Source: Acidobacteriota bacterium (GTDB lineage Bacteria > Acidobacteriota > Vicinamibacteria > Vicinamibacterales > 2-12-FULL-66-21). Taken from it: a stretch of 64,000 bases of DNA. The stretch covers positions 62,001-126,000 of the forward strand of contig JACPDI010000028.1 of assembly GCA_016184105.1 (NCBI GenBank), written 5' to 3'. Of the stretch, positions 24,740-52,868 are shown piece by piece. The stretch's first letter is position 1; the number at the start of each line of letters is the position of its first letter. Made by a program: the position numbers and the translations under genes. The notes below the pieces were generated by a model. It searched no databases and was not told the origin of the DNA. It worked only from the letters and a program-made list of their open reading frames with translations.

Positions 24740-24793
24740 CACCTCACGCGAGCGCCGGCTTGACCGCCTTCACCAGGACACGGAAGGCCGCGG

Positions 24794-24850
24794 AAAGTGG
24801 GACAGTCACACTTTCAGCGGGTCGACTGGAAAGTGTGACTGTCCCACTTT
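24794..24850. repeat. REP-like palindrome, copy 1 of 3
   Basis: Two perfect 22-bp inverted arms (24794-24815 and 24829-24850) with core GTGGGACAGTCACAC and a 13-nt loop. Each arm also contains AAAGTG...CACTTT and can fold on itself. The left flank holds a GGAAGGCCGCGG piece of the dispersed TTCTGCGG family. It separates surE from the small membrane protein gene. Copies 2 and 3 are at 37748 and 51489. Confidence 0.85.
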
Positions 24851-24853
24851 GCG

Positions 24854-33307: not shown

Positions 33308-35383
33308 ATGCACAACCGATTCCGGGTCCTGGTCGCCTCCGTGTCGATCGCCTCGCTGGCGCTGTTCGTCGCGTGCCGCGCCGGCAACCGCCCCGAGAAG
33401 TTCACGCAGAAGCTGGTCATCATCGGATTTGACGGGCTCGACCCGGACCTGGTGGAGCGGTGGGTCGCGCAGGGGCGCCTTCCCCATTTCGCGAGGCTCA
33501 TCAAGGAAGGCGGTCTCTACCCGCTCGAAACCACCGTGTCCCCGGAATCACCCACCGCGTGGGCGTCGTTCGCCACCGGCGTCAACCCCGGGAAACACAA
33601 CATCTACGATTTTCTCGTCCGCGATACCACGAACTACATGCCGGACCTGGGCATGGTGCGGCGCGAGCCCGCGCGGTTCCTCTTCAGCTACATCCCGATC
33701 AGGAAGCCGAAGGTGGTGTCGATCCGCGGCGGCACGTCGTTCTGGGTCACCGCCGGCAGGAGCGGGGTGCGTTCGTCGATCCTCACCGTGCCGGTGACGT
33801 TCCCGCCCGAGGAGGTGCCCAACGGCGAGATGCTCGCCGGCCTTCCCCTTCCCGACATCCGCGGCACGATGGGCACGTTCTACTACTTCGCCACCGATCT
33901 CAGCCGCTACGAGGAGGGCAACACCGAGATGGGCGGCATCCTCAAGCGACTGATCTTCGACGGGGACATCGCGCACACCGAGCTGGCCGGGCCGCCGAAT
34001 CCGATCGTGCGGCAGCAGCTGCAGCAGATCCGCGCGAAGGGGCGCGGCATCACGGACGCCGACCGCGCGCGGATTGCCGAGCTCGAGGCGCAGGAAGACG
34101 TCCGGGTCCCGATGACGATCCACTGGAACAAGCGCGAGGGAGAGCGCTCGGCGACGATCGAGGTCCAGGGGCAGTCCATCATGCTCAAGCCGGGCGGCTG
34201 GAGCCGCTGGATCGACCTCGAGTTCCGCGTGAACTTCCTCGTGCGCGTGCACGGCATGGCGCAGATGTACCTCGTCAACGCGGACGACGAGCTGCAGCTG
34301 TATGTGTCGCCGGTGAACTGGAAGGCGGACAACCCGCCGATGCCGATGTCGTACCCCGAGTCGTTCGCCGGCGATCTCTACGAGCGGCTCGGCCCCTACC
34401 GCACGCTCGGATGGGCCGAAGCCACGTGGCCGCTCAACGAAGGACGCCTGGACGACCGGACGTTCATGGACGACCTGTATCGCGCATTCGACGATCGCGC
34501 GCAGGTGATCCTGAGCCGGATCGACGCGAGAAACTGGGACCTGATGGTCGGGGTCATCGAGTCGACCGACCGCGTCCAGCACATGATGTGGCGGCTCATC
34601 GATCCGAAGCACCCGCTGTACGACGCGGCGCTGGCGGCCAAACTGGGCGACTCGATCGAGCGTGTGTACCGCCGCGCCGACCAGTTCGTGGGCGAAATGC
34701 TGGAACACCTGGAGCCGGGCACGCCGATCCTGATCGTGTCGGACCACGGCTTCCACTCGTGGCGCAAGGCGGTGAACCTGAACACGTGGCTCGTACAGAA
34801 CGGCTACATGACGCTCCGCGGCCAGCGCGCGGGCGAGAAGCGCCTGGACGATCTCTTCGGCGGTGGAGAGTTCTGGGAGGACGTGGATTGGAGCCGCACG
34901 CGCGCGTACGCGATGGGCATCGGCCAGATCTACTTCAACCTCAAGGGGCGCGAAGCCGAGGGGATCGTGTCGGCCGGCGCCGAGTACACCGAGCTCGCCG
35001 AGGAGCTGAGCGCGAAGCTCCTGACCTTCCGGGATCCGGAGGACGGCACGCCGATCGTCCGCGCGGTCTACAAGCGCGACGACACGTACAAGGGCGAGTA
35101 CCTGCAGAACGCGTCGGACCTGCAGGTGGGCATGGCCGACGGCTACCGGGTCTCGTGGCAGACCACGCTGGGCGGCGCGCCAAAGGAGGTCGTCTACGCG
35201 AACGACCGCAAGTGGAGCGCCGACCACGGCGGCTACGACTACCAGGCGACCTCGGGCGTCCTCATCTCGACGCGACGGCTCGAGGCGGGACGCACGCCGC
35301 ACATCATGGACATCGCGCCCACGGTGCTGAAGTACTTCGGGCTCGCGGTGCCGGCGGAGATCGATGGCAAGAGCCTGTTCTAG
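33308..35383 (+). CDS. Alkaline phosphatase superfamily phosphodiesterase, probable lipoprotein
   Basis: 691 residues. The N-terminus (SLALFVAC) has a lipobox Cys near residue 23. The type I phosphodiesterase/nucleotide pyrophosphatase fold follows: metal ligand in IGFDGLDPDLVERW, nucleophile region SPTAWASFATGVNPGKHNIYDF, then VGVIESTDRVQHMMWR, the second metal site SDHGFHSW and ADHGGYDYQATSGVLI. Substrate unknown; related exported enzymes act on nucleotides or phospholipid head groups. It is followed, with a 20-nt overlap, by an envC-like gene. Confidence 0.85.
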   Translation: MHNRFRVLVASVSIASLALFVACRAGNRPEKFTQKLVIIGFDGLDPDLVERWVAQGRLPHFARLIKEGGLYPLETTVSPESPTAWASFATGVNPGKHNIYDFLVRDTTNYMPDLGMVRREPARFLFSYIPIRKPKVVSIRGGTSFWVTAGRSGVRSSILTVPVTFPPEEVPNGEMLAGLPLPDIRGTMGTFYYFATDLSRYEEGNTEMGGILKRLIFDGDIAHTELAGPPNPIVRQQLQQIRAKGRGITDADRARIAELEAQEDVRVPMTIHWNKREGERSATIEVQGQSIMLKPGGWSRWIDLEFRVNFLVRVHGMAQMYLVNADDELQLYVSPVNWKADNPPMPMSYPESFAGDLYERLGPYRTLGWAEATWPLNEGRLDDRTFMDDLYRAFDDRAQVILSRIDARNWDLMVGVIESTDRVQHMMWRLIDPKHPLYDAALAAKLGDSIERVYRRADQFVGEMLEHLEPGTPILIVSDHGFHSWRKAVNLNTWLVQNGYMTLRGQRAGEKRLDDLFGGGEFWEDVDWSRTRAYAMGIGQIYFNLKGREAEGIVSAGAEYTELAEELSAKLLTFRDPEDGTPIVRAVYKRDDTYKGEYLQNASDLQVGMADGYRVSWQTTLGGAPKEVVYANDRKWSADHGGYDYQATSGVLISTRRLEAGRTPHIMDIAPTVLKYFGLAVPAEIDGKSLF

Positions 35384-36566
35384 AGGTCAGGGGCCAGAGG
35401 CCGGAGGCCAGGTCCGCCTTCTGATCCTGGTTGTCTGCGTGCTCGGCGCGTTCTGCGGTGAAAGGCTCTTCGCGCAGAACGAGCGCGCGCGCGCCGACGC
35501 GCTGGCGCGGCGCGCGACCGAACGCATCCGCGCGCTCCACGCCGAGGCCGAGCAGCTCGCCACCCAGGAGCGGACGATCCTGAACGAGCTGCGCCGGCTC
35601 GAAGTGGATCGGCAGATCAAGGCGGAAGAGGTCGCGCGCTTCGACGCGGAGCTGCTCACGGTGCAGAGCGAGCTGGCGGCGACCGGCGCGCGGGCGGCGG
35701 CGCTCGAGCGACGGGTCGTCGAGGACGCGCCGATCATCGCCGCGCGCCTGTCGTCGCTCTACCGGATGGGGCGGCCCGGTTACTGGCGGCTGCTGTTGGA
35801 CGTCGAGGACGTGCGCAGCGTCGGCCGCGCGTACCGGACGGTCAGCGCGATGGCGCGCCTCGACCGCGAGCGCGTCGACAGCCACCGGCGGCAGCTCGCC
35901 GAGCTGCGCGCCGCGCGCGTCACGCTGCAACGCCGCGCCGAAACGGCGCGCCGCGTCCAGGCGGGCGCGTCGGCCGCGCGCGCGGCGCCCGACCGCGCGA
36001 TCCACGCGCGCAACGCCCGCGTGGAGAGCATCGACCGCCAGCGCGACCTCAACGCGCAGCTCGCCGGCGAGCTGCAGGACGCCCAGCGGAAGCTGCAGGC
36101 CGCCATCGCCGCGCTGGCCGCCGGCCGCTCCGCGGGGGACACGATCGCGCTGCCGATCGAGCCGTTCCGCGGCGATCTGCCCTGGCCCGCGCGCGGCCGC
36201 GTCCGCGCGGCGTTCGGCCGCCGGCGCGCCTCGCGCTTCGGCACGAGCATCGTCCGCAACGGCGTGGAAATCGATGCGGCCGAGGGCGCCGCGGTGGGCG
36301 CGATCCACGAAGGCACGGTCGCGTTCGCCGGCCCGTTCCCGGGCTTCGGCAACCTCGTGATTCTCCAGCATTCGTCGGACGCAGGGCGCGAGGACTTTTC
36401 GCTCTACGGCCATCTCGAGACGATGGCGGTCAGAAAGGGAGACGGCGTCGAACGACAGAGGCAGGTTGGCACCGTTGGGCGCACGCCGACCGGCGCGGCC
36501 GCACTGTATTTCGAGCTGCGCATCGACGGTCGTCCGGTCGATCCCTTACAATGGCTGAAACGGTGA
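35364..36566 (+). CDS. EnvC-like murein hydrolase activator (coiled coil + degenerate LytM)
   Basis: 400 residues: hydrophobic signal segment (LLILVVCVLGAFC, about 19-31), a long coiled coil (about 40-260) and a C-terminal M23/LytM domain (about 275-400). The usual first zinc motif HxGxD reads RNGVEID, lacking His, and the HxH region is reduced to LYGHLE, so it is probably not a peptidase but an amidase activator like EnvC, working in septal wall splitting. The ATG at 35364 lies inside the previous gene. The signal segment is encoded by two repeats. Confidence 0.8.
   Translation: MARACSRGQGPEAGGQVRLLILVVCVLGAFCGERLFAQNERARADALARRATERIRALHAEAEQLATQERTILNELRRLEVDRQIKAEEVARFDAELLTVQSELAATGARAAALERRVVEDAPIIAARLSSLYRMGRPGYWRLLLDVEDVRSVGRAYRTVSAMARLDRERVDSHRRQLAELRAARVTLQRRAETARRVQAGASAARAAPDRAIHARNARVESIDRQRDLNAQLAGELQDAQRKLQAAIAALAAGRSAGDTIALPIEPFRGDLPWPARGRVRAAFGRRRASRFGTSIVRNGVEIDAAEGAAVGAIHEGTVAFAGPFPGFGNLVILQHSSDAGREDFSLYGHLETMAVRKGDGVERQRQVGTVGRTPTGAAALYFELRIDGRPVDPLQWLKR
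35384..35413. repeat. GGCCAGAGGCC heptamer-like array
   Basis: AGGTCAGGGGCCAGAGGCCG and the next few bases are a degenerate tandem of GGCC(A/G)GA units, starting right after the phosphodiesterase stop and translated as part of the N-terminus of the envC-like protein. A similar unit ends the slt gene (56551-56580). Confidence 0.5.
35426..35468. repeat. Dispersed TTCTGCGG repeat encoding the envC-like signal peptide
   Basis: GTTGTCTGCGTGCTCGGCGC followed by GTTCTGCGGTGAAAGGCTC matches the copy near 20671 in the opposite orientation. In this frame it gives VVCVLGAFCGERL, the hydrophobic core and tail of the export signal. Confidence 0.6.
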
Positions 36567-36573
36567 TGACCGC

Positions 36574-37737
36574 ATGAGCCCGCGCACCCGACTGATCGTT
36601 CTCTCGATCTCGACGCCGTTGCTGCTCTTCGTGCTGGTCGGCGGCCTGCTCGGCGCCCGCATCCAGCCCGAGCCCACGACCGAACAGTCGCTGCGCGTCT
36701 TCGAGGACGTCGTCTCGCTCATCGTCCACAACTACGTCGAAGACGCGAACGTGGACAAGGTGATGGACGGCGCGATGCGGGGCCTCGCCGATGGGCTCGA
36801 TGCCGACAGCGCGTACCTCCAGCCGGCGCAGGTGCGCGCGGTGGAGTCCGGCGAGCGGCTGCCGGACGGAGACGTGGGACTCGACCTGACGCGCCAGTAC
36901 TACCTGCGCGTGATCGCGGCGCGCGAAGGGTCGCCGGCCGCGCGCGCGGGGCTGCTCCCGGGCGATTTCGTCCGCGCGATCGACGGCAAGCCCACGCGCG
37001 ACCTGTCGGTGTACGAAGGCATGCGGATGCTGCGCGGCGCGCCGGGCAGCAAGGTCTCCGTGCTGGTGATCCGCGGTAATGCCGCGGATCCGCACGTCAT
37101 CGACCTCGTCCGCGAGAAGCCGAAGCCGCTGGCGGTCAGCGGGCGAATGGTGAACGGAAACGTGGGCTACGTCCGCATCCCGGCGTTCGACGCGACGACG
37201 GTGGACGCGCTGCGCCGCCAGGTCGCGGAGCTGGCGGCAGCCGGCGCCGCGAAGTTGATCCTGGACGTGCGGCAGACGAGCGAAGGGCCGCTGGACAGCG
37301 GGCTCGCCGCGGCGGGCCTCTTCGTGCCGCCCGGGACGACCATCGCCATGCGCGCCGGCCGCGGCCAGGAGAAGGCCCCGGTCGTCAGCGAAGGGGGCGC
37401 GCCGATCACGATGCCCGCCGTGGTCCTCATCAACCTGGGCACGTCGGGCGCCGCCGAGCTGTTCGCGGCCGCGCTTTCGGGCGCCGAGCGCGCCAAGACC
37501 ATCGGCGAGCACACCAACGGCCGCGCCGGCCTGCAGAAGCTGGTGAAGCTGCCGCAGGGATCGGGCCTCTGGCTGACGTACGCCACCTACACCACCTCAC
37601 GCGGCGACGCGATCCACGAAAAGGGGCTGACGCCCGCGATCGAAGTCGAAGAGGCCGAAGTCGAGTTCGGCAAGGTGGCCGACCCCGCGGCCGCGGATCC
37701 GGTCATCGAGAAGGCCCTCGCCACGCTTGGCGCGTAG
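36574..37737 (+). CDS. S41 (C-terminal processing) protease-like protein, probably inactive
   Basis: 387 residues: N-terminal anchor (LIVLSISTPLLLFVLVGGLLGA), PDZ domain (about 100-190, YYLRVIAAREGSPAARAGLLPGDFVRAIDG) and S41 core. At the nucleophile site the family motif SASAxE reads GTSGAAEL, placing Gly where the catalytic Ser should be, and the Lys of FGKGxVQ is Arg in NGRAGLQ. Both catalytic residues therefore seem lost, although Ser one position away might be argued. It follows the envC-like gene, as CtpA-type proteases often do, suggesting a scaffold role. Confidence 0.8.
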   Translation: MSPRTRLIVLSISTPLLLFVLVGGLLGARIQPEPTTEQSLRVFEDVVSLIVHNYVEDANVDKVMDGAMRGLADGLDADSAYLQPAQVRAVESGERLPDGDVGLDLTRQYYLRVIAAREGSPAARAGLLPGDFVRAIDGKPTRDLSVYEGMRMLRGAPGSKVSVLVIRGNAADPHVIDLVREKPKPLAVSGRMVNGNVGYVRIPAFDATTVDALRRQVAELAAAGAAKLILDVRQTSEGPLDSGLAAAGLFVPPGTTIAMRAGRGQEKAPVVSEGGAPITMPAVVLINLGTSGAAELFAAALSGAERAKTIGEHTNGRAGLQKLVKLPQGSGLWLTYATYTTSRGDAIHEKGLTPAIEVEEAEVEFGKVADPAAADPVIEKALATLGA

Positions 37738-37747
37738 CGCGACGGGC

Positions 37748-37831
37748 GGGGAAGTGGGACAGTCACACTTTCCCTGCCGGAACACCGGGAAAGTGTGACT
37801 GTCCCACTTCCCCGTCCCACTTTCCCACCCC
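37748..37831. repeat. REP-like palindrome, copy 2 of 3, with an extra half unit
   Basis: Perfect 27-bp arms (37748-37774 and 37787-37813) around a 12-nt loop, the longest of the three copies of the GTGGGACAGTCACAC palindrome. A third partial arm, GTCCCACTTTCCC, follows at 37814-37826. It lies between the S41-like gene and tRNA-Val. Confidence 0.85.
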
Positions 37832-37960: not shown

Positions 37961-38077
37961 CAGTGGCCAGTGGTCAGTGGCCGGTGGTCAGTGACTGGTG
38001 GACAGCACGGCAGGCCGTTGCGATATCCAGGCACTGATCACTGATCACTGACCACTGACCACTGACCACTGACCACC
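37961..38077. repeat. TGGTCAG heptamer arrays in inverted orientation, before thrS
   Basis: A left array of (A)GTGGTC-type units (37961-38003) and a right array of the complementary (T)GACCACT units (38035-38077) flank about 30 bp of unique sequence. They can pair into a long hairpin. The right array ends 5 nt before the thrS ATG, so no Shine-Dalgarno is present. Confidence 0.75.
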
Positions 38078-38082
38078 GCCCA

Positions 38083-40047
38083 ATGAGCCAGCTCACTGTG
38101 ACGCTGCCCGACGGCTCGACCCGTCGCGTGCCAGCCGGCACTCCCGTGCGCGACGTCGCGGCCCAGATCTCCTCCGGCCTCGCCCGGGTGGCGCTCGCCG
38201 CGCGCGTCGACGACCGCCTGGTGGACCTGTCCTTTCCGCTGGAGAAGGACGCCCGACTGCGCATCGTGACGCCGGAGGCGAACGGCCCGGAAGCGCTGAC
38301 GCTCTACCGGCACAGCACGGCGCACCTGCTGGCCGCCGCCGTGACGAACCTCTTCCCCGGCACGCAGTGCGGCATCGGCCCGGCCACCGACGAGGGGTTC
38401 TTCTACGACTTCGTGGTCGAGCGTCCCTTCGTGCCCGAGGACCTCGAGAAGATCGAGGCCCGGATGCGCGAGCTGGCCTCGCAGGATCTGCCGTACGAGC
38501 GGCAGCTGTGGCCGCGGCAGGAAGCGATCGACTTCTTTGCGCGGCGCGGCGAGCCGCTCAAGGTGCAGTTGATCGAAGAGAAGACGGCCGGGCAGGACTT
38601 CGTCTCCTGCTACACGATCAAGGACCGCGATCTCTTCGTCGACTTCTGCGTCGGCCCGCACGTGCCGTCCACGAGCAAGCTCAAGGCGTTCAAGCTCCTG
38701 ACGACGTCCAACGCGTACTGGAAGGGGGACGCGCGCAATCAGCCCATGCAGCGCGTCTACGGCACCGCCTTCTTCAAGGATGCGGAGCTGAAGGCGTACC
38801 TGCAGCGTCTCGAGGAAGCAAAAAGGCGGGACCACAGGAAGCTCGGACGCGAGCTCGGGCTGTTCATGTTCCACCAGTGGGCGCCCGGATCGGCGTTCTG
38901 GCTGACGAAGGGCACGGTGCTCTACAACATTCTCGCCAGCTACATGCGCGAGGTGCTGATCCCCGCGGGTTACCAGGAAGTGAAGGCGCCGATCGTCTTC
39001 AACAAGGCGCTCTGGGAGGCGTCCGGGCACTGGCAGCATTACCGCGAGAACATGTTCCTCGTGGAGAGCGAGAACGAGCAGATGGGGCTGAAGGCCATGA
39101 ACTGCCCCGGCCACTTCCTCATCTACCGCAGCGATGTCCGCAGCTACAAGGACCTGCCGCTGCGCTTCCACGAGCAGACGCCGCTGCACCGCAACGAAGC
39201 GTCCGGCGTGCTCTCGGGGCTCACGCGCGTCCGGCAGTTCAGCCAGGACGACGGGCACTGCTTCGTGATGGAGTCGCAGATCGGCGAGGAGGTCACGCGG
39301 CTGCTCCGCCTCGTGCAGCGCGTGTACGGCGACTTCGGATTCAAGCCGGAGATGAAGCTGTCGACCCGGCCGGCCGAGTTCATGGGTGCGATCGAGGCGT
39401 GGAACCACGCGGAGAGCGAGCTGAAGCGCGCGCTCGACGCCGTCGGGGAGCAGTACACGATCAACGAGGGGGACGGCGCGTTCTACGGGCCGAAGATCGA
39501 CTTCGACATCACCGATGCGATCGGGCGGAAGTGGCAGTGCGCCACGATCCAGCTCGATTACCAGATGCCGGAGCGGTTCGACCTGAAGTACGTGGGCGCC
39601 GACAACGCCGAGCACCGGCCGGTGGTCATCCACCGCGCCATCTTCGGGAGTTTCGAGCGCTTCATCGCGATGCTGATCGAGAACTACGCCGGCGCCTTCC
39701 CGCTGTGGCTCGCGCCCGTGCAGGTCGTCGTGCTGCCCATCGCCGACCGGCACGCCGAGTACGCCGCCCGGGTGCGCGACCGGCTCGCGGCCGCCGGGCT
39801 TCGCGTGGAGCTCGACGACCGCCAGGAAAAGATCGGCTATAAGATCCGGGAAGCCCAGTTGCAGAAGATCCCCTACATGCTGGTAGCGGGGGACAAGGAA
39901 GTGTCGGACGGCAGCGTGTCCGTGCGCAGCCGCAGCGGCGGCGACCTGGGCGCCCGCGGGCTGGATGAGTTCGTCGTGATGGCGAAGGAAGAAGTCGCCA
40001 CCCGGGGAAAGGCCGAGGAGCTTGGTGCTGTGAGCAGGTCTGCATAG
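38083..40047 (+). CDS. thrS: Threonyl-tRNA synthetase
   Basis: 654 residues in standard order: TGS domain (1-62), editing domain with HSTAH (about 73-77) and the CVGPHVPST site, then the class II core with motif 2 region RFHEQTPLHRNEASGVLSGLTRVRQFSQDD, the zinc ligands in MNCPGH and QDDGH, and the anticodon-binding domain from about 540 (QVVVLPIADRHAEYA). It starts the thrS-infC-rpmI-rplT-pheST cluster. Its ribosome-binding region is replaced by a heptamer array, and the C-terminus is followed by another. Confidence 0.97.
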   Translation: MSQLTVTLPDGSTRRVPAGTPVRDVAAQISSGLARVALAARVDDRLVDLSFPLEKDARLRIVTPEANGPEALTLYRHSTAHLLAAAVTNLFPGTQCGIGPATDEGFFYDFVVERPFVPEDLEKIEARMRELASQDLPYERQLWPRQEAIDFFARRGEPLKVQLIEEKTAGQDFVSCYTIKDRDLFVDFCVGPHVPSTSKLKAFKLLTTSNAYWKGDARNQPMQRVYGTAFFKDAELKAYLQRLEEAKRRDHRKLGRELGLFMFHQWAPGSAFWLTKGTVLYNILASYMREVLIPAGYQEVKAPIVFNKALWEASGHWQHYRENMFLVESENEQMGLKAMNCPGHFLIYRSDVRSYKDLPLRFHEQTPLHRNEASGVLSGLTRVRQFSQDDGHCFVMESQIGEEVTRLLRLVQRVYGDFGFKPEMKLSTRPAEFMGAIEAWNHAESELKRALDAVGEQYTINEGDGAFYGPKIDFDITDAIGRKWQCATIQLDYQMPERFDLKYVGADNAEHRPVVIHRAIFGSFERFIAMLIENYAGAFPLWLAPVQVVVLPIADRHAEYAARVRDRLAAAGLRVELDDRQEKIGYKIREAQLQKIPYMLVAGDKEVSDGSVSVRSRSGGDLGARGLDEFVVMAKEEVATRGKAEELGAVSRSA

Positions 40048-51053: not shown

Positions 51054-52868
51054 CTAGCTCGCGGTCAGCTCCTCCTCGAGGAGCTGCTTGCGGTACAGCT
51101 CCGCGTACGCGCCCCCCTGCGCGACCAGCTCGTCGTGGCGGCCGCGCTCGCCGATCCGCCCCTCGTCGAGCACCAAAATCTGGTCCGCGTGGCGGACGGT
51201 GGACACCCGGTGCGAGACGATCAGCGACGTGCGCTGCTTCATGACCTGCTTGAGCCGCGTCAGGATTTCCTCCTCCGTATACGTGTCCACCGCCGACAGC
51301 GCGTCGTCCAGGACGAGGATGGGCGGGTCGGTCACGATCGCGCGCGCAATGGCGGTGCGCTGCTTCTGTCCCCCGGAGAGCGTGATCCCGCGCTCGCCGA
51401 CCATCGTGTCGAAGCCCTTCGAGAAGGCCTCGATGTCCTTGTCGAGCCGCGCGACCGCCGCGGCCTCGCGGACCGCGGAAAGGACCGCGGAAAGTGGGAC
51501 AGTCACACTTTCCTGTGAGCGAGCGGAAAGTGTGACTGTCCCACTTTCCGCCTCCACCCCCAGCGCGATGTTGTTGGCCACGGTGTCCGAGAACAGGAAC
51601 GGCTCCTGCGGCACGAAGCCAATCGCCCTGCGGAGCACCGGGAGCGGGATGTCGCGGACGTCCACGCCGTCGATGAAGACGCTGCGCGGCGGCGGCTCGT
51701 GCAGGCGCGGCAGCAGCGACAGCAGCGCCGACTTGCCCGATCCGGTGGGCCCGACGAGCGCCACCGTCTGGCCGGGTTCGATCTTCGCCGAGACGCTGCG
51801 CAGAACGGGTTCGCCGGTCCCGTTGTAGCTGAACGTCAGATCCCTGATCTCGATGCCACCACGCGCGATGACCGGGACGACGGGGCGGCCCGGAGGCGCG
51901 TGGGTGATCACGGCGGGCTCGGCGTCCAGCACGTCGAGCATGCGTTTCCACGACGCCATCCCCCGCTGCATCATGTTCGTCACCCAGCCGAATGCAATCA
52001 TCGGCCAGCTCAGCATCGCCAGGTACGAGTTGAACGCGACGAACTCGCCGAGCGTGATCCGGCCGCGGATCACTTCGCGGCTGCCTATCCAGAGCAGGAG
52101 CAGCGCGCCGAGGCCCAGGAACAGGGACATGCTGGGGAAGAACAGCCCCTGGATCCGGATGAGCGACCGGTTCCGGTCGAAATACTCCTGGTTGGCGGCC
52201 CTGAACCGCGCCAACTCGGCGTCCTCCTGCCGGTACGCGCGCACGACCCGGACGCCGGAGAGGGCTTCCTGCGCGACGGCCGTGATGTCGGCGAGTTGCT
52301 CCTGGATGCTCTCGAAGCGGCGGTGGATGACCGAACCGAAGTACTTGACCGAGATCGACACGAACGGCAGCGGGATCAGCGCGATGAGCGTCAGCCTCGC
52401 GTCGATCGAGATCATCAGCGTCAGCGCCACGACGAACACGATCAGCGTCGTCGTCGAGTACATGACGGCGGGGCCGATCATCATGCGGACGGCGCTGAGG
52501 TCGTTGGTGGCGCGCGACATGAGGTCGCCGGTCCTGCGCTCCTGGAAGTAGCTCACGGGCAGCTTCTGCAGGTGGCCGAAGAAGTCGTTGCGCAGGTCGT
52601 ACTCGATGATCCGCGAGGCGCCGACGATGATGCGGCGCATCAGGAAGCGGAAGTAGCCACCGACGAGCGCAATGCCGAGGAGCGTGGCCGCGTAGGTGAT
52701 GAGCTTGGCGCGGGTGACGCCCACGGTGAGATCGTCAATCGCGTATTTCAGGATCCACGGCGACGCGAGCGAGACGGCGGTCGTGATCGCGGCGCACGCG
52801 AGGCCGAGGGCGAACTGGCGCCTGACCCTGAGTGCGTACGGCAGCAGGCGGCGGAACGCGGTCCCCAT
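51054..52868 (-). CDS. ABC exporter, fused membrane/ATPase subunit (first of a pair), with palindrome insert
   Basis: 604 residues: six TM helices, then the ATPase with Walker A GPTGSGKS, Q-loop FVPQEPFLFSDTVANN, signature LSGGQKQRTAIARAI, Walker B ILVLDDALSAVD and H-loop VSHRVS. Note that the Walker B catalytic Glu is Asp (LDDALSAVD), typical of the degenerate site of a heterodimer. A palindrome copy is inserted in frame between the Q-loop and the signature (about residues 440-460). The ATG lies 7 nt after TATACT. Confidence 0.9.
   Translation of the reverse strand: MGTAFRRLLPYALRVRRQFALGLACAAITTAVSLASPWILKYAIDDLTVGVTRAKLITYAATLLGIALVGGYFRFLMRRIIVGASRIIEYDLRNDFFGHLQKLPVSYFQERRTGDLMSRATNDLSAVRMMIGPAVMYSTTTLIVFVVALTLMISIDARLTLIALIPLPFVSISVKYFGSVIHRRFESIQEQLADITAVAQEALSGVRVVRAYRQEDAELARFRAANQEYFDRNRSLIRIQGLFFPSMSLFLGLGALLLLWIGSREVIRGRITLGEFVAFNSYLAMLSWPMIAFGWVTNMMQRGMASWKRMLDVLDAEPAVITHAPPGRPVVPVIARGGIEIRDLTFSYNGTGEPVLRSVSAKIEPGQTVALVGPTGSGKSALLSLLPRLHEPPPRSVFIDGVDVRDIPLPVLRRAIGFVPQEPFLFSDTVANNIALGVEAESGTVTLSARSQESVTVPLSAVLSAVREAAAVARLDKDIEAFSKGFDTMVGERGITLSGGQKQRTAIARAIVTDPPILVLDDALSAVDTYTEEEILTRLKQVMKQRTSLIVSHRVSTVRHADQILVLDEGRIGERGRHDELVAQGGAYAELYRKQLLEEELTAS
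51489..51549. repeat. REP-like palindrome, copy 3 of 3, inside the ABC exporter ATPase
   Basis: Perfect 25-bp arms (51489-51513 and 51525-51549) with an 11-nt loop and the same core GTGGGACAGTCACAC. Upstream lies CCGCGGAAAGGACCGCGG of the other repeat family. It is translated as ESGTVTLSARSQESVTVPLS without shifting the frame. Confidence 0.9.

Follow-up and report, generated by a model that had tools for sequence, protein, structure and literature searches.

The window, by which we mean the whole 64,000-nucleotide stretch of DNA analyzed here, lies on contig C28 of a genome bin of 4.24 Mb (G000 in our survey).

Locus and Predicted Signal Peptide

Based on open reading frames and Pfam matches, positions 33308-37737 of the window hold three genes in a row: a phosphodiesterase-like gene, an EnvC-like M23 gene, and an S41/PDZ peptidase gene (Table 1). 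The label "EnvC-like", which stands for a putative LytM-degenerate amidase activator, is a provisional one, based on a coiled-coil-like N-terminal part together with an M23 domain. By eye, the site of this M23 domain looks degenerate, with NGVEID and YGHLE where HxxxD and HxH are expected. A phosphodiesterase homologue was found close upstream in 36 orthologue loci; a search of named genomes gave only three related loci, in Acidobacteria-type MAGs at 48-49% identity, and these indicate the phylum.

Table 1. Genes of the locus and segments of the predicted signal peptide (window coordinates)
Feature	Position	Strand	Details
Type I phosphodiesterase/nucleotide pyrophosphatase family gene, upstream	33308..35383	+	PF01663, 3.3e-40; C terminus ...IDGKSLF-stop
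EnvC-like gene: predicted signal peptide, coiled-coil-like region, C-terminal M23/LytM domain	35364..36566	+	ORF; M23/LytM domain at residues 299-394 (PF01551, 1.5e-20)
Start codon and residues 1-7, MARACSR	35364..35383	+	ATG GCA AGA GCC TGT TCT AGA; overlaps upstream gene end
Heptamer array, residues 8-16, GQGPEAGGQ (n-region)	35385..35411	+	GGTCAGG-GGCCAGA-GGCCGGA-GGCCAG; in codons, GGT CAG GGG CCA GAG GCC GGA GGC CAG
VRLLILV, residues 17-23, hydrophobic core start	35412..35432	+	GTC CGC CTT CTG ATC CTG GTT; neither repeat family
TTCTGCG element, ~30 nt, single copy, residues 24-33, VCVLGAFCGE (rest of hydrophobic core)	35433..35462	+	GTC TGC GTG CTC GGC GCG TTC TGC GGT GAA; 24 other copies aligned
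RLFAQ, residues 34-38, predicted signal peptidase I site between LFA and Q	35463..35477	+	AGG CTC TTC GCG CAG; conserved junction
S41/PDZ C-terminal processing peptidase gene, downstream	36574..37737	+	PF03572, 2.1e-31; PF17820, 3.2e-12

The first-pass annotation of this DNA had placed the start codon of the EnvC-like gene inside the preceding gene, and it does lie there: the ATG at 35364 falls 20 nt inside the upstream ORF (end 35383), where it is formed from the Asp codon GAT and the G that follows. Residues 1-38 read MARACSR-GQGPEAGGQ-VRLLILV-VCVLGAFCGE-RLFAQ (35364-35477). The four-unit GGCCAGA heptamer array begins one base past the upstream stop, and the TTCTGCG element shows a 9-nt internal periodicity. 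With up to three mismatches, GGCCAGAGGCCAGAGGCCAG has two matches in the window, both within the heptamer array, versus 0.00 expected, and with up to two mismatches, TTCTGCGGTGAAAG has three versus 0.24 expected. The same annotation took repeats to supply the whole N terminus, which is correct for residues 8-16 and 24-33 but not for residues 1-7, 17-23, and 34-38; the repeat-derived share of the predicted signal peptide is about half (~19 of 37 residues), and VRLLILV, outside both families, contributes five of the 13 hydrophobic-core residues. Similarly, the TTCTGCGG repeat that it named is present, but this 8-mer is only part of the ~30-nt element.

By sequence criteria, the signal peptide of the window has Sec features, namely, an n-region charge of +2 and a small-residue cleavage motif, and in the window the most hydrophobic 12-residue stretch of the frame used has a Kyte-Doolittle mean of 3.25, versus 0.61 and -0.31 in the other frames. 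The peptide is probably used for Sec export, and the EnvC-like protein would be cleaved between LFA and Q.

Repeat Families in the Genome

When the 99-nt signal-peptide region was compared by blastn with its own 4.24-Mb genome, 38 further places matched at an E value of ≤1, some of which, near the limit of 1, may be chance matches. The matches form two blocks, with query positions 4-43 corresponding to the heptamers and 52-90 to the TTCTGCG element. Both repeat families of the signal peptide, as first noticed from the window sequence, are dispersed in their own genome; the other copies are mostly intergenic and frequently occur as inverted pairs. A consensus from 24 aligned copies of the TTCTGCG element (TTCTGCGTGTTCCGCGCGTTCTGCGGTGAA) would translate as FCVFRAFCGE, from which the VCVLGAFCGE of the window differs by three first-position changes (F to V, F to L, and R to G) that take one arginine and two phenylalanines out of the hydrophobic core. 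These point changes may have tuned the signal peptide. The heptamer and TTCTGCG copies in the window are at most about 93% identical to other copies, and such divergence indicates that the insertions are old. An assembly artifact is unlikely given the diverged repeat copies, the phosphodiesterase-EnvC order in other genomes, and the open frame.

The heptamer family also appears elsewhere in frame. That is, at L006:1501-1531, inside a large TolB-like/amidohydrolase-like ORF (domain names assigned by eye), a GGCCAGA array encodes EARGRRPEAR between VTMA and YQVIDNGT; therefore, this family enters non-signal coding sequence too.

Orthologues and Their Signal Peptides

An EnvC-like orthologue is present in 103 of 162 genomes of the order (E ≤ 1e-40), all of them draft bins with gene calls of our own, and 91 loci entered the comparison. 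The mature protein opens with a recognizable ...AQ(Q/N)xDRARTEALARR block, and the sequence before this block is unrelated among orthologues, although the AQ junction is common to most of them. The first-pass annotation had suggested looking for unrelated signal peptides joined at the same residue, and this is the pattern observed: the start and the AQ junction are shared, and the N termini are alike only in MAxRCS and AQ, so that the contrary outcome, an N terminus held in common at the protein level, was not seen. Because signal peptides diverge fast anyway, difference alone is weak evidence, and it is the repeat matches within each genome that carry weight.

Many of the orthologue signal peptides are plainly translated repeats, such as AFAHSCILAFVHSCILAF in G033, WWLMAGGWWLAAALWLVAGGWWL in G035, TVTVTVIAGLLAITVTVTV in G011, FAAFAAFAF in G030, SAVSAVSAL in G029, and RVGRVGRVG...PPNPPYSPYLP in G111. 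For 21 genomes, the signal-peptide DNA was concatenated and searched against those genomes themselves, a second round was added, and G000 and G010/G011 were searched separately; scoring covered 15 to 40 candidates per genome, which makes the match counts lower bounds, and the E values come from queries of differing length. On this basis, signal-peptide DNA has non-self copies in its own genome (E ≤ 1e-4) in 15 of 22 genomes (G000, which is that of the window, G002, G010, G011, G013, G017, G020, G021, G029, G030, G032, G033, G035, G094, and G111). Below threshold are G001, G003, G004, G006, and G031, the last of which counts as untested in the second round given an approximate query with a self match of only 87%, and G008 and G016, which match weakly. 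Control DNA from the mature domain, searched in 11 of the 22 genomes, gave no non-self match in its own genome. Other copies number at least 11 in G029 (85-89% identity over ~70 nt), at least 20 in G030, and about 90 in G011, and across genomes, the signal-peptide DNA represents about nine unrelated repeat families. One locus, L085 (G031:C404), seems to have a tandem duplication of the beginning of the mature domain (RERTEALAHRATARLQALQHEAE / RARTEALARRATERLQALQREAD) beside the signal peptide.

Could GC-rich hydrophobic cores simply come to resemble TTCTGCG/TTCGCG or GTGGCTGGTGG repeats through codon usage, with no insertion at all? Short repeats can be mimicked by low-complexity hydrophobic runs, and the matches in G000, G016, and G008 are modest. 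However, the matches in G029, G010/G011, G033, G035, G030, and G013 span 31-70 nt at 83-100% identity, some take in hairpin arms that lie in the polar n-region, elsewhere in their genomes the G033 and G029 elements lie mostly between genes, and strong folding (z below -3) is found in 8 of 88 signal-peptide segments versus 0 of 88 mature segments. We regard such convergence as very unlikely.

In same-genus pairs, different repeats can occupy the signal peptide. Over 349 mature residues, G033 and G035 share 87% identity, yet their signal peptides derive from different heptamers, one TGCATTC type and the other GGTGGCT type, between flanks that they have in common (MASRCS before and TPxxFAQQ after the repeat part); the signal peptides also differ within G029/G030 (71%) and G016/G017 (78%). 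These pairs bear on the idea that a single ancestral repeat-derived signal peptide was homogenized by gene conversion with genomic copies rather than hit by repeated insertions. TTCTGCG-type cores at this position in G000, G029, G030, G032, G016, G017, and G020 could indeed reflect common descent, but same-genus pairs differ in lengths, frames, and hairpin arms, and other families occupy the site in G010/G011, G033, G035, G013, and G111/G094. We consider gene conversion of this kind unlikely and infer that the repeats came to the site by insertion rather than by gene conversion or by slippage at the locus.

The first-pass annotation left open whether the export signal was created or replaced by repeats. 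Replacement is the part that stands; de novo creation was rejected since orthologues without repeats also have signal peptides, an example being L038 (MGSRSFSLALSLVLALAAQ...), which lacks detectable repeats and in which the same ATG opens a short signal peptide of ordinary kind.

Start Codon and Reading Frame

Whether the repeats are translated can be judged from the reading frame. The overlapping ATG occurs in 19 loci, the window included, whose upstream gene uses GAT for the Asp codon. Each of these 19 has a stop-to-anchor distance of 1 mod 3, measured to the conserved anchor, over lengths of 61-190 nt with the frame open, and in 18 of 19 the frame used holds the most hydrophobic 12-residue stretch. 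Where there is no ATG at the exact position, only 6 of 17 adjacent pairs are 1 mod 3, and in one of these six, L154, an ATG lies in frame three bases to the upstream side. The presence of the overlapping ATG in the downstream gene is set by a synonymous choice in the upstream gene, GAT or GAC, and the frame constraint goes with it.

In the competing explanation, translation begins downstream of the repeats, which stay untranslated, and the ATG at 35364 is a chance product of the conserved DGK motif upstream. It is true that this ATG stems from the D-G pair conserved in the upstream protein and that a gene caller based on codon usage placed the EnvC-like start at 35439, and it has been cautioned that many REPs at annotated N termini may for such a reason be untranslated (PMC3733652). 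Against this stand the frame kept in 19 of 19 loci with the ATG versus about one-third of those without it, the lack in the window of a downstream start that leaves the full hydrophobic core, and L038 and L086, where no signal peptide is plausible except the one that begins at the same ATG. A start downstream of the repeats, the other outcome that would have undercut the initial reading, is argued against mainly by the 19/19 frame conservation, and we consider it very unlikely. The frame comparisons support translation of the signal-peptide repeats.

Repeats behind Stop Codons

Why should repeats collect at this one place? We examined a sample of 464 kb from the genome of the window (400 kb plus the window) with a home-made gene caller whose start calls are unreliable, for which reason the main statistic uses stop positions. 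Forty-four elements of four families were located, 31 of them intergenic, and 25 of these 31 lie within 20 nt behind a stop codon, versus 3.5 (SD 1.7) expected for random intergenic placement; before start codons there is no excess in this sample (4 versus 4.0). In G033 and G029, too, most other copies of the elements are intergenic, commonly adjoining a 3' end. With the EnvC-like start codon 20 nt ahead of the upstream stop, the favored post-stop spot falls on signal-peptide codons. The TTCTGCG element of the window lies ~50 nt from the stop and hence not directly behind it. The hot spot was probably made by the gene overlap together with the tolerance of signal peptides.

Two other features of the window concern repeat placement. 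At 24792-24852, 37749-37812, and 51489-51549 there is a third dispersed family of near-perfect hairpins (GTGGGACAGTCACACTTTCC...GGAAAGTGTGACTGTCCCAC), which numbers 18 elements across the 464-kb sample, most of them 0-15 nt past stop codons; in sequence, these hairpins resemble the palindrome that forms the G010/G011 signal peptide. The gap just upstream of the start of a threonyl-tRNA synthetase-like ORF (38083) is occupied, at 37961-38085, by CAGTGGT heptamer arrays that are inverted relative to each other.

Hairpins in Signal-Peptide DNA

Several relatives hold a full inverted pair in the signal peptide. The 8 signal-peptide segments with a folding z below -3 compare with 1 of 87 upstream segments, and in-frame repeat hairpins are present in L074, L095, L075, L080, and L042. 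The signal-peptide copy of the window itself has no hairpin (folding z, 0.11), and a hairpin reading of that copy was dropped for this reason. An in-frame hairpin would yield a polar or basic stretch and then a hydrophobic one because the reverse complements of hydrophobic codons are mostly polar. In L074, L095, L075, and L080, the left arm is polar (Kyte-Doolittle, -0.8 to -2.6) and the right arm is hydrophobic (+0.65 to +1.65); the pattern is thus seen in four of seven examined, and L042, L155, and L123 break the rule. We speculate, and tentatively, that inverted-repeat elements may be ready-made signal peptides and a general, continuing source of them at start/stop overlaps in repeat-rich bacteria. 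If so, post-stop repeats would supply export signals and N-terminal membrane anchors wherever a start overlaps an upstream stop. The G029 hairpin repeat also has two copies within called ORFs, far from the ORF ends (L192 and L193; G029:C43 and C98), which are either real in-frame insertions or false ORF calls.

Comparison with Known Systems

The closest precedent is Yersinia YPO1552, whose predicted signal peptide is partly an RU-2/YPAL repeat, an enterobacterial element, and whose relatives have unrelated signal peptides (Delihas 2007, PMC2759123). That case concerns one locus and one 168-bp MITE-like family, whereas here one conserved gene has been affected by about nine families in many lineages, with frame statistics and a reason for the hot spot. 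The present case is set apart from YPO1552 by this recurrence at one conserved gene with about nine unrelated families. Rickettsia palindromic elements are dispersed palindromes kept in frame inside conserved proteins; they are 105-146 nt long, occur in many genes, and were not reported there as signal peptides (PMC2229807). The case described here is similar in that a dispersed element sits in frame in a conserved gene (19 of 19), but here most other copies lie outside genes, and the copy in the window is no palindrome. REP/REPIN elements are short repeats and hairpins that cluster immediately past the ends of coding regions (PMC3733652, PMC12306157), which resembles the post-stop location and the many copies in inverted pairs seen here; in contrast, the window copy is not a hairpin, and the heptamer arrays are tandem rather than built of palindromic units.

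With regard to mobility, G000 has two Y1_Tnp (RAYT-type) genes, one of which, at C18:52387, is ~100 nt from a GTGACTGTC-type repeat (C18:52250), suggesting that the Y1_Tnp gene in G000:C18:52250-52719 may move the GTGACTGTC-type family. None of the Y1_Tnp genes in the surveyed genomes could be tied to the two families of the window signal peptide. Cyanobacterial heptanucleotide tandem repeats (STRR) are seven-nucleotide tandem arrays scattered in intergenic space; the heptamer arrays here are likewise mostly intergenic, but the sequence and the phylum differ. In the literature on signal-peptide evolution and Acidobacteria heptamers, we found nothing closer than PMC2759123, PMC2229807, PMC3733652, and PMC12306157.

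Proposed Mechanism and Significance

In total, the observations outlined above are best explained if the EnvC-like protein begins with a genuine export signal that is translated and in part of which dispersed extragenic repeats have overwritten the sequence, a reading to which we assign a probability of roughly 0.8. The ATG sits within the final codons of the upstream gene (GAT-GGC... of ...DGKxLF-stop), and the post-stop stretch, the usual collecting place of heptamer arrays, TTCTGCG elements, and hairpins, is therefore also the stretch that encodes the signal peptide. In this model, an insertion of 3n nucleotides would still work if its frame encodes a basic or polar n-region and a run of hydrophobic residues, because signal peptides need an overall character and not a fixed sequence. 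Tolerated insertions would be retained, displace the older hydrophobic core, and later be displaced by others, with the start and the cleavage junction staying in place.

The origin of new coding sequence and the turnover of signal peptides are open questions that are usually argued statistically. One orthologous gene here offers many natural replicates, in which the start, the cleavage junction, and the mature protein are conserved and the middle has been replaced by differing noncoding repeats, and the synonymous GAT/GAC difference in the upstream gene serves as an internal control, going together with the presence or absence of the start codon and the frame constraint. The hot-spot mechanism, gene overlap plus post-stop repeats, predicts which other genes should be affected. 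Most generally, the locus points to a concrete route by which noncoding repeats may become protein sequence.
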